Assembly: GCA_013373375.1 (NCBI GenBank)
Contig: JABXHY010000024.1
Coordinates: 124,001 to 188,000 of the forward strand
Direction of reading: 5' to 3'
Source: Gammaproteobacteria bacterium
GTDB lineage: Bacteria; Pseudomonadota; Gammaproteobacteria; Enterobacterales; Kangiellaceae
DNA length: 64,000 nt
In this document: positions 13,182-21,026 of the stretch, one piece after another
How positions within the stretch are numbered: the first letter of the stretch is position 1
How the letters are laid out: the number at the start of each line of letters is the position of its first letter
Program-made: the position numbers and the translations under genes
The notes under the pieces: generated by a model
What the model was told of the DNA's origin: nothing
The model's database searches: none
Seen by the model: the letters and a program-made list of their open reading frames with translations, nothing else

Positions 13182-13544
13182 ATGGATTCTGGTATATTAA
13201 TTCCAATTACACTATTCATCACCGTTGCGGCAGTTTTGATCGTAGCAATAGTGCTTGGCCACAAATCAAAAGCATCTGTGCAAGAGACCATTCGACAGTC
13301 AATCGAGCAAGGCCACCAGATAACGCCTGAATTATTGGCTAAACTTGGTAGTACCCACTCCCCAAAAGTGAAAGACTTACGTCGCGGCATTGTTATTTTT
13401 TCTTTAGGTCTCGCTGCAATGGCGGCAGGGCTTATTGTTAATGATCCAGATGCGACAGTTGGGATTATGATGATTGGAGTATTTCCATTGTTTATTGGAG
13501 CAGGCTTTCTGCTGGTTTGGAAACTTAATCGTTATAATGATTAA
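13182..13544 (+). CDS. Small membrane protein, DUF6249-like
   Basis: Three hydrophobic segments; SIEQGHQITPELLAKL segment as in DUF6249 proteins encoded beside sigma factors. Confidence 0.65.
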   Translation: MDSGILIPITLFITVAAVLIVAIVLGHKSKASVQETIRQSIEQGHQITPELLAKLGSTHSPKVKDLRRGIVIFSLGLAAMAAGLIVNDPDATVGIMMIGVFPLFIGAGFLLVWKLNRYND

Positions 13545-13609
13545 GAGAGTAATCATAGTGCACGAGTTAACTGATATTGAAATGATGAGCCAATTAAGTT
13601 TCCTCAAAT

Positions 13610-14143
13610 ATGCAGACAGATGAACAATTAATCAGCCTCGTTGTATCGATTGACGATCGCGAGGCATTTAGCGTTTTAGTGAAACGTCATCAGTCGGCAT
13701 TAAGACAATTTCTCCGACGAGTTTCTGGCGGTGATTACGCTCTGTCCGATGATATTGCGCAAGACAGTTTTATATTGGCGTACGAAAAGTTAGCTCAATT
13801 TTCGAATCAGGGGAGTTTTGCCGCATGGCTTAGAACTTTGGCATATCGCCGGTTTTTAAGAGTGGTACAAACCGGAGCTAGCCGATTTGAGTGTTCTTCA
13901 GATATGGCAGATCTTTCGTTAAAACACGATGATGCCGTTGAAGCCGATATAGCTGCGGAAAAGCTAATGCAACAGTTAATAGTTGAGCACAGGGTAGCAC
14001 TTACTTTAAGTTATAGTGAGGGAATGAGCCATCCTGAAATCTCGCAAATTACAGGATGGCCGCTGGGAACGGTCAAATCCCATATAGCGAGAGCAAAACA
14101 GGAGTTAAAGCGATATTTGGAAAGGCCACAGCAGGTGGCGTAA
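13610..14143 (+). CDS. ECF-type RNA polymerase sigma factor
   Basis: Sigma-70 region 2 (DDIAQDSFILAYEKLAQF) and region 4 (LSYSEGMSHPEISQITGWPLGTVKSHIARAKQEL). Confidence 0.9.
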   Translation: MQTDEQLISLVVSIDDREAFSVLVKRHQSALRQFLRRVSGGDYALSDDIAQDSFILAYEKLAQFSNQGSFAAWLRTLAYRRFLRVVQTGASRFECSSDMADLSLKHDDAVEADIAAEKLMQQLIVEHRVALTLSYSEGMSHPEISQITGWPLGTVKSHIARAKQELKRYLERPQQVA

Positions 14144-14193
14144 GCATTTTGAAAAGTTTTTACCTTAATTTGTACCTAGATATAGGAGGCAAG

Positions 14194-14487
14194 ATGATTC
14201 AGTCAATTAATTCTTTACTTCAGTACCATCAGAGTCTTGTATCTAATGAGTTTGTTTCTCGTGTACTAGAGTCCGTCGCTCACCGACAGTTGCGTAGATC
14301 TATCATATTATCGATTTTTACCTTTTTGGGAATGTTGTCCGCTGCAGTTGGATTAACTTTATTTATGGATAGTTTGTTGCTCAGTTTACCAAGTTACTTC
14401 AATTTTAGTCCTATAATGATTAGTGTAATGGTGATAGGCCTAGCAGCGATTTTTTGGGATGGAATTGTAGAGTTAATGGCGGCTTGA
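14194..14487 (+). CDS. Small two-TM membrane protein, possible anti-sigma-like partner
   Basis: Start ATG with AGGAGG RBS immediately downstream of the sigma factor; two hydrophobic helices. Confidence 0.6.
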   Translation: MIQSINSLLQYHQSLVSNEFVSRVLESVAHRQLRRSIILSIFTFLGMLSAAVGLTLFMDSLLLSLPSYFNFSPIMISVMVIGLAAIFWDGIVELMAA

Positions 14488-14712: not shown

Positions 14713-16827
14713 ATGAGTGAGTGGCCAACTGAAAACACTGAACTTATTGACGAGCAAGAGCTCTACGATGATTGGGTGTCACACCCTATTCGTATTGGCG
14801 ATTATTTAATCAATTTTAACGATAAAACTGTCACGACTCCTACCAAAGAAGTCCGAAATATAACACCGAACTCCATTCGTTTACTTTTGTTGTTGCTGCA
14901 CAATGCGAATACCTATGTGTCATTGCAGGACATCCATAAATTTATTTATGGCAATCAGTACAAAGACGATTCATCTACGCGTAAGCAGGTCACCGCACTT
15001 AGAAAGTTATTTGATGACACCGATAAAGAAAAACGATTTATCGAAAACAAGTTAGGACATGGATATCGCTTAGTTGCGCCAGTAGACTTTATTGAAGACG
15101 AAAAACAAAGGCGCTCAAGAGATAAGTATTATTGGGCGGCTGGTGCTGCTTTGTTTTCACTAGGTGTCGCTGTCGTGCTTGGATGGTGGTGGACGGCTAA
15201 ACAGCTGGCCTCGCAAAACTATATTGAACAAAGTGATGACTACGCTCGTCCCGTTCCCGTGAGTCACTTTAAAGGAATTGAAAATTATCCTTCGATTTCA
15301 GATGACCAGCGCTGGCTTTTATTCAACCATAAACCCGAAGGAAAAGATCTCTGGCAAATTTATGTTAGAGACATGGTGAGCGGCGAGTTGACGCAACTTA
15401 GCATTGATAGTAGCTACGAAAGAATTCCCAAGTGGTCTTATGGCCACACATTTGTATTTTCACGGTTTGATGGCAATGACTGTCATTTTTACGCTGCTGA
15501 CTTTTCGCCTTTAACCAAAAAAGTAAGTAATGAGCGAAAATTGGTGGAGTGCAGTAAAAAATCTCCCAATGCACAAGGCCACATGTGGGAAGATGGAACC
15601 GGCATGTATTTCAATCGAGCTAATTCAGTCAACGATCCTTTTGTCATTTATTCATATTCATTCGCCACTCAAAAAAGCTGGCCGATTGCTTCACCACCAC
15701 CGAGTGGCAAAGGCGATTACTTTTTCTCAGTTAGTGAGAACGGAAAATACTTAGCGGTTCTGCGAAACAAAAACTGGTCGCAAACGGAAGTTTGGATGTA
15801 TGACACTACAACGTGGGAAACTGAGCTAATCGATACGGTGAATGCGGTTCTGCATACGGTAGAGTGGGTGGTCAACCAAAGTATTGTTTATCGAAATGAT
15901 TTCAACGAGATAATGAAGTACGATTTGAAAGATCGAAAACGTAATGTAGTGTTGCGACCAGCTTTACCTGTTTATGCGCCACTGCTCTTGAAGTCGGAAG
16001 ATATTATTTATACATCAGGTTCTTACTTCAAAAGCGACCTGGTTAAACACGACTTGCAACATTCCAAAGTTACAAAAGTAGAAAGTTCTTCATATGATGA
16101 TTTTCTTCCCGCAGTTAGTAGAGATGGTCAATCCCTCGCCTGGGTTTCGAATCGTACTGGGGTATTTCAAATCTGGTTTAAATCAGAAGGAAAAAAAGCG
16201 TTACCTCTTACAAATTTAAAGCGAAACTTAAAATTCACTGATTTATCGATTTCACCCAACGGACAGTTCGTTGGAGGAACCACAAATGGGAAGTGGTTCA
16301 TTATTGAAATAAACAGTCGGGAAATTTTGTGGAGTGATTCAGAACTTTACTATAAGAACTTTCAATGGCGTCATGACAGCCAGTCGGCTTACCTTGCAGT
16401 AAAACATATGGAGCAGTGGAAGCAAGTAATTGTAGATATTAACGGACAGTATTCTGAGCCAAAAAATCTACCTACAGATGCTTTTATTGTTGCTGAAGTA
16501 TCGGAGTCTCTGCATTACGTTGCTTCTTTTCAAACCAATGGTTTCTGGAGAGTTAAAGCAGACAATGGCAAAGAGCAAAGTTTCTTTGAAACGGATCAAA
16601 CCATCAATAAAACGGGTAGATGGTGTGTTACTGATAAAGCTATTTATTATATTCAAGGCGATAAAGTCTTAAGACTTGGTCATGAAGAGCAGGAACCCAT
16701 TGAAATTGAAAATAAACTGGTGGGATCCCGTATTACTTTACCGAATGATGAGTCATGGTTTATCAGTACACAGACGATCGAAGGAGAAGTGGACCTGATT
16801 GAACAGGTTAAAATTCGTTCAAATTAA
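14713..16827 (+). CDS. CadC-like transmembrane winged-helix regulator with TolB/WD40-like C-terminal beta-propeller
   Basis: OmpR-type wHTH (SSTRKQVTALRKLFDD..RFIENKLGHGYRLVAPV), single TM (YYWAAGAALFSLGVAVVLGWWW), PD40-like repeats (FLPAVSRDGQSLAWVSNRTGVFQIW). Confidence 0.88.
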   Translation: MSEWPTENTELIDEQELYDDWVSHPIRIGDYLINFNDKTVTTPTKEVRNITPNSIRLLLLLLHNANTYVSLQDIHKFIYGNQYKDDSSTRKQVTALRKLFDDTDKEKRFIENKLGHGYRLVAPVDFIEDEKQRRSRDKYYWAAGAALFSLGVAVVLGWWWTAKQLASQNYIEQSDDYARPVPVSHFKGIENYPSISDDQRWLLFNHKPEGKDLWQIYVRDMVSGELTQLSIDSSYERIPKWSYGHTFVFSRFDGNDCHFYAADFSPLTKKVSNERKLVECSKKSPNAQGHMWEDGTGMYFNRANSVNDPFVIYSYSFATQKSWPIASPPPSGKGDYFFSVSENGKYLAVLRNKNWSQTEVWMYDTTTWETELIDTVNAVLHTVEWVVNQSIVYRNDFNEIMKYDLKDRKRNVVLRPALPVYAPLLLKSEDIIYTSGSYFKSDLVKHDLQHSKVTKVESSSYDDFLPAVSRDGQSLAWVSNRTGVFQIWFKSEGKKALPLTNLKRNLKFTDLSISPNGQFVGGTTNGKWFIIEINSREILWSDSELYYKNFQWRHDSQSAYLAVKHMEQWKQVIVDINGQYSEPKNLPTDAFIVAEVSESLHYVASFQTNGFWRVKADNGKEQSFFETDQTINKTGRWCVTDKAIYYIQGDKVLRLGHEEQEPIEIENKLVGSRITLPNDESWFISTQTIEGEVDLIEQVKIRSN

Positions 16828-16976
16828 GATTTTAGAACAAAAATGGCGATTTTTTAATCAAGAATATCTCAAAATTCACATAATTTTCCCGACATTTGCA
16901 CAGCTATTTTTTTTCATTTCACGTAATTTGTTAATCATGTTTTCTTATCTTATGTAATCCATCGAGGCTGTTTATC

Positions 16977-17159
16977 ATGATTAATTTAAATATTTTTGTA
17001 GTTTTATTATCTCTTATGCAAGGCGACGCTAACTTGGGAGCTGGTGGACAAGCCGAACCTATGTTTGATGAGCCACAAATTGTTGGGCCAAAGAATCCTG
17101 AACCAGTTATTCAAGAGTGCGTTGAGTGGCCAATATGTCCACCTGATCAAACGAACTAA
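16977..17159 (+). CDS. Short peptide copy 1 (60 aa) MINLNIFVVLLSLMQGDANLGAGGQAEPMFDEPQIVGPKNPEPVIQECVEWPICPPDQTN
   Basis: Conserved with copy 2 in protein sequence while synonymous sites differ; conserved GAGGCTGT upstream. Confidence 0.75.
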   Translation: MINLNIFVVLLSLMQGDANLGAGGQAEPMFDEPQIVGPKNPEPVIQECVEWPICPPDQTN

Positions 17160-17285
17160 GAGCGCTATTGCAATAAGAGCAATCAAGTTTTATGCAGTGT
17201 GTTTTTTGCACAAATTGTGTAAAACCAAGAAGTTACAAATATTTCACTAGTGGAATTGAAGCTGGCACAATGAGGCTGTACTAAT

Positions 17286-17465
17286 ATGATCAATTTAAAT
17301 ATTTTTGTTGTTTTACTAACTCTTCTTCAAGGTGATGTAGCCGTAGGCGCTGGAGCTCAAGAAGAACCAGTATTTGACGAAGCTGCAATTAGCGCTCCTG
17401 GTAACAGAAATCCGAAGACTACCGAATGTGTTGAGTGGCCGATTTGCCCTCCAGATCAAAAGTAA
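17286..17465 (+). CDS. Short peptide copy 2 (59 aa) MINLNIFVVLLTLLQGDVAVGAGAQEEPVFDEAAISAPGNRNPKTTECVEWPICPPDQK
   Basis: Translated by hand; absent from the ORF track (59 aa); paralogous to 16977-17159. Confidence 0.75.
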   Translation: MINLNIFVVLLTLLQGDVAVGAGAQEEPVFDEAAISAPGNRNPKTTECVEWPICPPDQK

Positions 17466-17548
17466 GATAAAAGTCTTAAAGGGTTAAACAACGGGCTAGG
17501 GATTGGATTTCTAGCCAAACCTTATCGAGTTGAATCGAACTCGAGTTG

Positions 17549-17587
17549 AACCGGAGAAGTTGCACCGACATGCTATCTCCGGTTTTT
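17549..17587 (+). terminator. Rho-independent terminator after the short-peptide pair
   Basis: AACCGGAGA...TCTCCGGTT followed by T-rich TTTCAT. Confidence 0.7.
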
Positions 17588-17641
17588 CATTTGTGTTTCG
17601 AAGTATTTTTGAGCATCGAATTTTGAACGAGGATTTCAACT

Positions 17642-18181
17642 ATGTTCTTGTCTCCAATGCAGTATCTAGACTCAGAAGGTTTGCAATATCAGGTTTTGCA
17701 TCACCCTCACGCAGAGAGTATTAAAGAGACTGCGATTCTCGCGCAGCTGCCCGAAGCCGCCATCGCAAGAGTTATCATTGTAAGTTTGGTGAGCAAAACA
17801 GATGTTCTTAGTGTGTCTGAAGCTATAGTGTTGGTTCCTGGGGATACCGAACTTGATTTAGTTGCTTTGCGCAATGAGTTAAATGTGAGAGATGTTCATA
17901 TTGTCTCGAATACTCAGCGGGAAGGATTATTCACTGGGTTCGACCTGGGCTCAGAAGCGCCTTTTGGCCATTTGTATGGAATGAGGGTATTCATAGCTAA
18001 AGAGCTATTTAACCGCTTTGATATTACGTTTAAAGCAGGTAATCATGAAACGCTAATTCGGATGAGTACGGTCGACTTTTGTAATCTTACCCAAGTTCAA
18101 ACAATTGAAAATGGTTACTCCAATTCTAATGCAGCCGAGTTTTACTCAGAGCAGACGACCAAGCCATGGCGTTGGGTTTAA
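17642..18181 (+). CDS. YbaK/EbsC-type aminoacyl-tRNA deacylase domain protein
   Basis: LHHPHAESIKETA... and P.EAIVLVPGD.ELDL.ALR pattern, PFGHLYG; YbaK-like fold pattern. Confidence 0.75.
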   Translation: MFLSPMQYLDSEGLQYQVLHHPHAESIKETAILAQLPEAAIARVIIVSLVSKTDVLSVSEAIVLVPGDTELDLVALRNELNVRDVHIVSNTQREGLFTGFDLGSEAPFGHLYGMRVFIAKELFNRFDITFKAGNHETLIRMSTVDFCNLTQVQTIENGYSNSNAAEFYSEQTTKPWRWV

Positions 18182-18221: not shown

Positions 18222-18284
18222 TAGAGAATCTAGAGGATCTAGAGGATCTAGAGGATCTAGAGGATCTAGAGTATTTAGAGAATC
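18222..18284. repeat. Tandem repeat, 9-bp unit, 7 copies (TAGAGAATC, 4x TAGAGGATC, TAGAGTATT, TAGAGAATC)
   Basis: Read directly; units contiguous, edges symmetric (TAGAGAATC at both ends). Confidence 0.95.
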
Positions 18285-20513: not shown

Positions 20514-21026
20514 TTGTTTAATATGAGAGAGAAGATTGATGATATCTTGTTCACACTTGGCTGCAATATCGAGCGCTATCAGCACCCTCCATTGCCCACG
20601 AGTGATGCAGCAAAAGAGCTATGCATTGAAAGAAGTGGTGTTCAAATAAAAAACCTTTTTCTAAATGATAATTATCGGAAACGACATTTTTTGTTGTTGA
20701 CTACGCCTGAAAAAAAGATTGATTTAAAGGTATTATCTAAGCAACTGAAGGTGTCTCGCTTAGGATTCGCATCGTCGAGACGGTTGAATCACTATCTTAA
20801 TGGTCAGCCCGGTCATGTTAGCTTTTTACTATTGGTAAATGATCAAGAGAAAAATGTTGAGTTATTAATTGATCAAGATATTTGGCAGGCAGAGAGTTTA
20901 CAAGCGCATCCTGGTATTAACACTGAAACTTATGTCTTATCAAAAGTAGATGTTGTGAAGTTTCTAAAATATACAGGGCATGAATCGAAAATTGTATATG
21001 TACCAATAGCGAATTCCGAAGAGTGA
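20514..21026 (+). CDS. ProX/YbaK-type prolyl-tRNA deacylase-like protein
   Basis: Pattern KNLFLNDN..KRHFLLLTTPEKKIDLK.L.KQLKVSRLGFAS, PGHVSFLLLVND as in PrdX/ProX proteins; likely start MREK (20523). Confidence 0.8.
   Translation: MFNMREKIDDILFTLGCNIERYQHPPLPTSDAAKELCIERSGVQIKNLFLNDNYRKRHFLLLTTPEKKIDLKVLSKQLKVSRLGFASSRRLNHYLNGQPGHVSFLLLVNDQEKNVELLIDQDIWQAESLQAHPGINTETYVLSKVDVVKFLKYTGHESKIVYVPIANSEE

Follow-up and report, generated by a model that had tools for sequence, protein, structure and literature searches.

Small cysteine-loop peptides encoded beside a predicted membrane-anchored propeller regulator in Pleionea and related bacteria

Main finding

Two tandem genes for small cysteine-containing peptides, located in the window (the whole 64,000-nucleotide stretch of DNA that was analysed), lie directly downstream of a regulator gene, and comparison with related loci makes it almost certain that regulator and peptide form a conserved two-gene cassette. 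On balance, and by a judgement only just better than even, the peptides are exported, regulated private partners of the adjacent regulator, most likely feeding back on its propeller.

Locus features

The genome that contains the window groups in one genus with Pleionea mediterranea and P. sediminis. The features of the locus are as follows.

14713..16827, + strand: cognate regulator (Pfam Trans_reg_C and PD40; AlphaFold2; PDB fold search; position kept in relatives)
16875..16930, + strand: predicted regulator site in the regulator-peptide gap, TTCACATAATT, TTCCCGACATT, TGCACAGCTAT, TTTTTTTCATT and TCACGTAATTT in 11-bp register
16964..16967, + strand: Shine-Dalgarno GAGG of peptide gene 1 (an equivalent GAGG precedes peptide 2)
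16977..17159, + strand: peptide gene 1, 60 aa, with a hydrophobic N-terminus, an acidic variable middle and a CVEWPIC loop; orthologues in all 5 genus genomes
17286..17465, + strand: peptide gene 2, 59 aa, a tandem paralogue in this genome only
17548..17590, + strand: terminator-like hairpin (ACCGGAGA ... TCTCCGG TTTTT) 3' of peptide 2, from folding (region z -3.2)

Peptide genes

As the earlier note had described, the two adjacent ORFs of 60 and 59 aa lie on the same strand and end in an identical tail, ECVEWPICPPDQ; the two peptides are 68% identical. The Cys-X6-Cys spacing given for this tail was wrong, the cysteines being C48 and C54 and the spacing C-x5-C. Selection on the peptides, which had also been proposed, is borne out by the comparison of copy 1 with copy 2, in which synonymous sites over all codons are saturated (pS 0.77) at a Ka of 0.26, the differences in the 12-residue tail are all synonymous (7, against 0 non-synonymous), and the middle is the fast-changing part (Ka 0.58). 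This pattern indicates that both ORFs are real and that purifying selection is strong. The AlphaFold2 model of the window peptide, one helix followed by disorder, is uninformative (pLDDT 58).

The hairpin at 17548..17590 suggests the end of the peptide transcript upstream of ybaK. A consensus scan gave no short-loop terminator after peptide 2, and this hairpin went unreported by the scan because of its long loop. The gap before peptide 2 (17160-17285) has no 11-bp array of the kind found before peptide 1, and copy 2 may therefore depend on read-through from copy 1, or its expression may depend on another factor. The same gap contains a near-palindrome, TTTTGCACAAATTGTGTAAAA.

An orthologue of the peptide gene occurs at the same place, in single copy, in 4/4 of the other genus genomes, the tandem duplication being limited to the window genome. 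The earlier note had held that a lack of homologues with a preserved reading frame in related genomes would speak against the peptides; since the frame is open and both termini are conserved in these four orthologues, that objection falls away. In the genus orthologues the N-terminus is hydrophobic, in most cases M[TI]xINIFLxxLGL, and is followed by a variable part and then a CxxxPxC loop. The gene order DUF6249, ECF sigma factor, small membrane protein, regulator, peptide and ybaK is shared with L007 and L008, the two relatives within the genus whose full neighbourhoods were read. A DUF2158 gene follows the peptide gene in 4/4 relatives and is absent from that spot in the window genome.

Directly 5' of the regulator, positions 13182-14487 of the window encode the DUF6249 protein, the ECF sigma factor and the small membrane protein (a possible anti-sigma factor). 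Between ybaK and yebG (18222-18284) the 9-mer TAGAGGATC is present seven times in tandem, and two YbaK-type aminoacyl-tRNA editing proteins are encoded within 3 kb (17642-18181 and 20514-21026).

Regulator

The survey of genomic context that the earlier note had proposed showed that the peptide is no orphan, the regulator gene directly upstream having been overlooked in that note; an orphan peptide thus becomes half of a recurrent two-gene cassette. Pfam identifies a Trans_reg_C winged helix at residues 49-120 and PD40 repeats, and the AlphaFold2 model (mean pLDDT 86.5) comprises the winged helix, a long helix (136-169) with a transmembrane segment, and an all-beta part of ~530 residues. The best matches in a PDB fold search were mostly two-propeller proteins (WD40 proteins, LRP6) at low global TM-scores, so the double propeller is a prediction. 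The protein is predicted to be a membrane-anchored one-component regulator with a periplasmic double beta-propeller, and has the Trans_reg_C domain, transmembrane helix and extracytoplasmic sensor of transmembrane OmpR/CadC-type one-component regulators. The propeller loops hold conserved residues (KGxE, GxGDY, SSS), and certain propeller positions, e.g. W214, Y336, E359 and L380, are specific to peptide-class regulators. Many of the same propeller residues are kept in peptide-less cousins, and such residues are therefore no proof of peptide binding. No relative of the regulator was found in the viral contigs searched.

Distribution of the cassette among relatives

The DNA downstream of homologous regulators was sampled in other genera and families (67 distinct regulators), and a same-strand small Cys-loop ORF follows 28 of the 67. 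These ORFs encode 53-113 aa, usually start 60-330 nt after the regulator, and have a hydrophobic N-terminus, a variable middle and the Cys loop. The gap between the genes means that the cassette need not be one operon. In part of the survey 4 candidates per genome were scored, and the true number of cassettes is therefore probably higher than 28. A contig search with an 11-row alignment found loci in Pleionea and Aliikangiella; a single-protein query matched none. A maximum-likelihood tree places 24 of the 28 peptide-bearing regulators in one 25-member clade, the subfamily of the window regulator, and the peptide label changes 5 times, versus 21 with shuffled labels (counted with L025, whose peptide has a GTG start codon, scored as peptide-less). 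The lone peptide-less clade member, the 575-aa homologue L029, lacks the DNA-binding (wHTH) domain.

ORFs of this type arose by chance in 10 of 7600 randomised downstream segments (0.13%), and the motif matches just one other mechanical ORF in the 64-kb window; the cassette loci share ancestry and thus do not count as independent trials. A Shine-Dalgarno-like site accompanies 22/28 peptide ORFs versus 11/94 mechanical ORFs. Chance ORFs are ruled out by the orthologues, Ka/Ks, the Shine-Dalgarno statistics and the randomisation.

Identity among the peptides has fallen to about 20%, and only M1, two cysteines and one proline are invariant. Nearly all clade peptides have a Cxx[FYW]PxC loop. The Cys loops of the 28 ORFs include CEPYPAC, CTPYPEC, CVPFPSC, CDTFPEC, CKPYPEC, CEPFPDC, CGDWPYC and CDSNRWPSC, and that of L011 is degenerate (CREAPKC). 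One genome (G018, Pleionea sp. CnH1-48) has four regulator-peptide pairs, three of them adjacent, with a private peptide for each paralogue. At G018:C11:120027-127858 three cassettes (L019, L026, L023) stand in direct tandem, each with a TCAC repeat array, and the tandem peptides have longer Cys loops (CPTGGKYPYC, CDSNRWPSC, CHPHSEDYPLC). At L013, L020 and L021 a further unnamed small-protein family is encoded 3' of the peptides (GEHEVH ... C..LP ... LG.F..C..A ... GC..C...C), whose L020 copy has no Pfam match.

The window peptides have no significant Pfam or NCBIfam match, and no match is consistent across the 29 members; the small ORFs are therefore probably under-annotated. Weak single-member matches to Motilin_ghrelin, Gpos_C8_like, TrsH and CpxP look accidental. 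The literature searched yielded no description of the regulator-peptide pairing, and no described family was found for these fast-evolving peptides.

Predicted regulator sites

The site at 16875..16930 is conserved in four orthologous gaps. Taken together, the regulator-peptide gaps have an excess of 11-bp self-similarity, with a Stouffer z of 8.0 at lag 11 (7.8 with one member per close group) and 3.5 at lag 22, weaker values at lags 9-10 and none at 12-13; the signal is collective, with p<0.05 in only about one third of single regions. The repeats read TTTTACGTAAA-TTTCACGTGAA-TTTTACGCAAA at L013, TCACAGGACTA-TCACGTTCGTA-TCACAT at L026 and TTTTCATAACT-TCTTCAACACT-TTTTCAAAACT at L021. The DNA 5' of the same regulators has no 11-bp excess (Stouffer z 1.0). 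Peptide-less cousins with a divergent neighbour have the excess upstream (8.1) and not downstream (1.1), so the site tends toward the promoter of the adjacent target, which in the peptide class is the peptide. These predicted sites make it likely that the peptide gene is a direct target of the adjacent regulator.

The divergent neighbours of the peptide-less cousins, assigned by reading their sequences, are mostly genes for exported proteins, namely large Cys-rich secreted proteins (genus g6, the small-genome sister genus), esterase-like lipoproteins and a subtilase-like protein, and in a plasmid search plasmid-borne cousins were found to adjoin TonB-dependent receptors, not peptides. L129 and its relatives in genus g6, and L130 in G018, face a divergent Cys-rich secreted protein of ~730-750 aa. 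At its N-terminus this protein has IEPC...DDC and a Gly-rich linker (repeated in L129), which may be a Cys-loop tag of the same kind joined to a larger protein.

In Pleionea, the element conserved upstream of the five peptide genes, used as a pattern, matches exactly at the peptide gene in 5/5 genomes, and has two more matches in P. sediminis, about 90-100 nt upstream of DUF2158 genes.

The DUF2158 loci considered include L122, L125, L134, L138 and L143 of P. sediminis.

Of the five DUF2158 (YodC-like) paralogues in P. sediminis, the four that stand alone have TTGCACAGC upstream, as does the peptide gene. Where the upstream DNA could be read, T[TG]CACAGC was found 68-116 nt before the start of 7/7 stand-alone DUF2158 genes, against a background of 0.8% of random 260-nt pieces. 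The elements agree near letter for letter, e.g. ATTTTCCCGACATTTGCACAGCT before the window peptide and ATTTTCCCAACATTTGCACAGCT before a DUF2158 gene of genome G001. Two-mismatch matches at L123 and L124 look like background, a reversed-pattern control giving equally many. The shared element, and the DUF2158 gene after the peptide in 4 relatives, make it probable that peptide and DUF2158 genes are co-regulated. That the same regulator acts on the DUF2158 genes is what we infer; the element could belong to another regulator.

Export

A strongly hydrophobic N-terminus is present in 76% of the peptides versus 18% of control ORFs, the remainder of the peptide is mostly acidic (pI near 4), and most members have exactly two cysteines. 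Many relatives have textbook signal peptides (e.g. ...LILSSILAFSTATFA/QEGE and ...LGSVTSFA/DS), with basic N-terminal residues and a cleavage-site-like A-x-A. The statement of the earlier note that basic N-terminal residues are missing is correct for this genus but does not extend to these same-motif relatives. The Pleionea peptides, including the window copies, lack both a basic start and a clear cleavage site and do not fit the classical Sec pattern, so they may stay anchored. From these features export of the peptides is considered very likely.

Proposed mechanism and alternative explanations

In the proposed mechanism a periplasmic cue would be sensed by the propeller, and the membrane-tethered winged helix would bind the repeats by the promoter and activate the peptide gene or genes, and in Pleionea also DUF2158 genes. 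The peptide would travel through Sec; in Pleionea its hydrophobic end would stay uncleaved and act as a tether, in relatives it would be cleaved, and a disulfide would close across C-x-x-[FYW]-P-x-C. The loop would then dock on the propeller of its own regulator and adjust it, a feedback that is perhaps redox-gated and MgrB/PhoQ-like. The feedback step taken alone is plausible at somewhat less than an even chance; it is suggested indirectly by the strict one-to-one pairing, the private peptide of each paralogue, the missing peptide where the DNA-binding domain is missing, the reduction of the peptide to an anchor and a loop, and the conserved propeller-loop residues, some of them class-specific. 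Since the cousins use the same position for very different exported proteins, the peptide may be only an output. A wider reading, in which marine gammaproteobacteria hold a large, so far unrecognised set of private pairs and each propeller regulator induces, and is controlled by, its own exported disulfide-loop peptide, with the loop docked on the propeller face, is more tentative; if true, two genes would suffice for an autoregulatory circuit that senses a peptide, a minimal design spreading through gene duplication.

Peptide-less cousins appear to control TonB-dependent receptors, esterase-like lipoproteins and large Cys-rich secreted proteins, and these differing exported targets at the same position mean that an adjacent target need not be a ligand. 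The peptide could accordingly serve as an output alone, as an exported effector with an envelope, adhesion, antimicrobial or metal/redox role that does not act back, but the peptides share little beyond a short Cys loop, hardly the basis for an enzyme-like function common to all, and each paralogous regulator has retained a peptide version of its own, so that this explanation is rated rather unlikely. The signal peptides, the small size, a fixed loop within an otherwise variable sequence, the private pairs and the possible positive-loop layout would also suit a secreted cell-to-cell signal that the propellers of nearby cells perceive, a Gram-negative counterpart to quorum sensing by peptides. 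This is improbable, as no outer-membrane exporter was seen beside the cassette, and the Pleionea hydrophobic end, which has no obvious cleavage site, suggests tethering. A small, fast-evolving extracytoplasmic partner encoded after the regulator also recalls a constitutive co-component (stabiliser or co-sensor) such as ToxS, VtrC or TcpH; the known partners, however, are lipocalin-like and their genes mostly overlap the regulator gene (PMC9214523), whereas in the present cassettes the two genes stand about 60-330 nt apart, the gap has repeats of its own and the partner is too short for a lipocalin-like fold, which leaves this option very improbable.

The earlier note had offered a secreted disulfide or signalling peptide and a RiPP-like precursor as possible functions. 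The former gains from the classical signal peptides and single Cys pair of the relatives. A RiPP precursor or leader peptide would be short, with a variable middle and conserved ends, as these peptides are; the note was nevertheless right that no modification enzyme is evident nearby, none being present in any neighbourhood examined (window and relatives), and because of this, and because the neighbour across genera is a transcription regulator, a RiPP is unsupported. The conserved part is, moreover, the Cys loop, and relatives have Sec signal peptides, so the chance of a RiPP is rated as negligible.

The cassette provides a testable rule, namely that regulators of this class have one target gene next to their own, in most cases for an exported protein, with 11-bp repeats as the mark. 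If the peptide is also a ligand, the cassettes would be among the simplest Gram-negative peptide-receptor circuits, and the pairs, which occur naturally and may be orthogonal (one genome has four), would lend themselves to the study of how such pairs diverge.

Comparison with known systems

PhoP induces mgrB, which is unlinked to phoPQ. MgrB, of enterobacteria, is a small membrane protein that acts on PhoQ and needs its periplasmic Cys pair for function, and its two essential cysteines have been proposed to form a redox-sensitive disulfide (PMC10576120). The present peptides resemble it as very small membrane or periplasmic proteins (here periplasmic by prediction) with a hydrophobic N-terminus and a Cys pair. 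MgrB acts on a histidine kinase via transmembrane/linker regions, whereas the candidate partner here is an adjacent one-component winged-helix/propeller regulator, and no sequence relation to MgrB was found, the members sharing no Pfam or NCBIfam family.

In ToxR/ToxS, VtrA/VtrC, TcpP/TcpH and PsaE/PsaF, a membrane-tethered winged-helix regulator is encoded beside a fast-evolving extracytoplasmic partner (PMC9214523), and the peptide is likewise encoded beside a membrane-tethered wHTH regulator. A lipocalin-like partner and gene overlap are usual in those systems, whereas here the partner is a single-loop peptide of 53-113 residues with its own repeat-bearing upstream region, and the predicted sensor is a double propeller of ~530 residues. 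No lipocalin-like beta-barrel is indicated for the 60-aa peptide (AlphaFold2 pLDDT 58, no shared family). As the peptide shares no family with them, shows no lipocalin-like fold and has its own upstream region with repeats, the pair is assigned to neither the MgrB nor the co-component systems, although the peptide may work like MgrB.

The regulator resembles CadC/ToxR-like regulators in its N-terminal Trans_reg_C winged helix, single transmembrane helix and periplasmic sensor, and differs in that the sensor is a predicted periplasmic TolB/PD40-type propeller; PD40, TolB and propellers go unmentioned in one survey of transmembrane regulators (PMC10269533). The predicted sites resemble the boxes bound by OmpR/PhoB-type winged helices, which are direct repeats with an 11-bp pitch; those of mycobacterial PhoP consist of 7-bp motifs with a 4-bp spacer (PMC4832192). 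They differ from these in having at least 3 repeats at some loci and half-site letters that vary between regulator subgroups.
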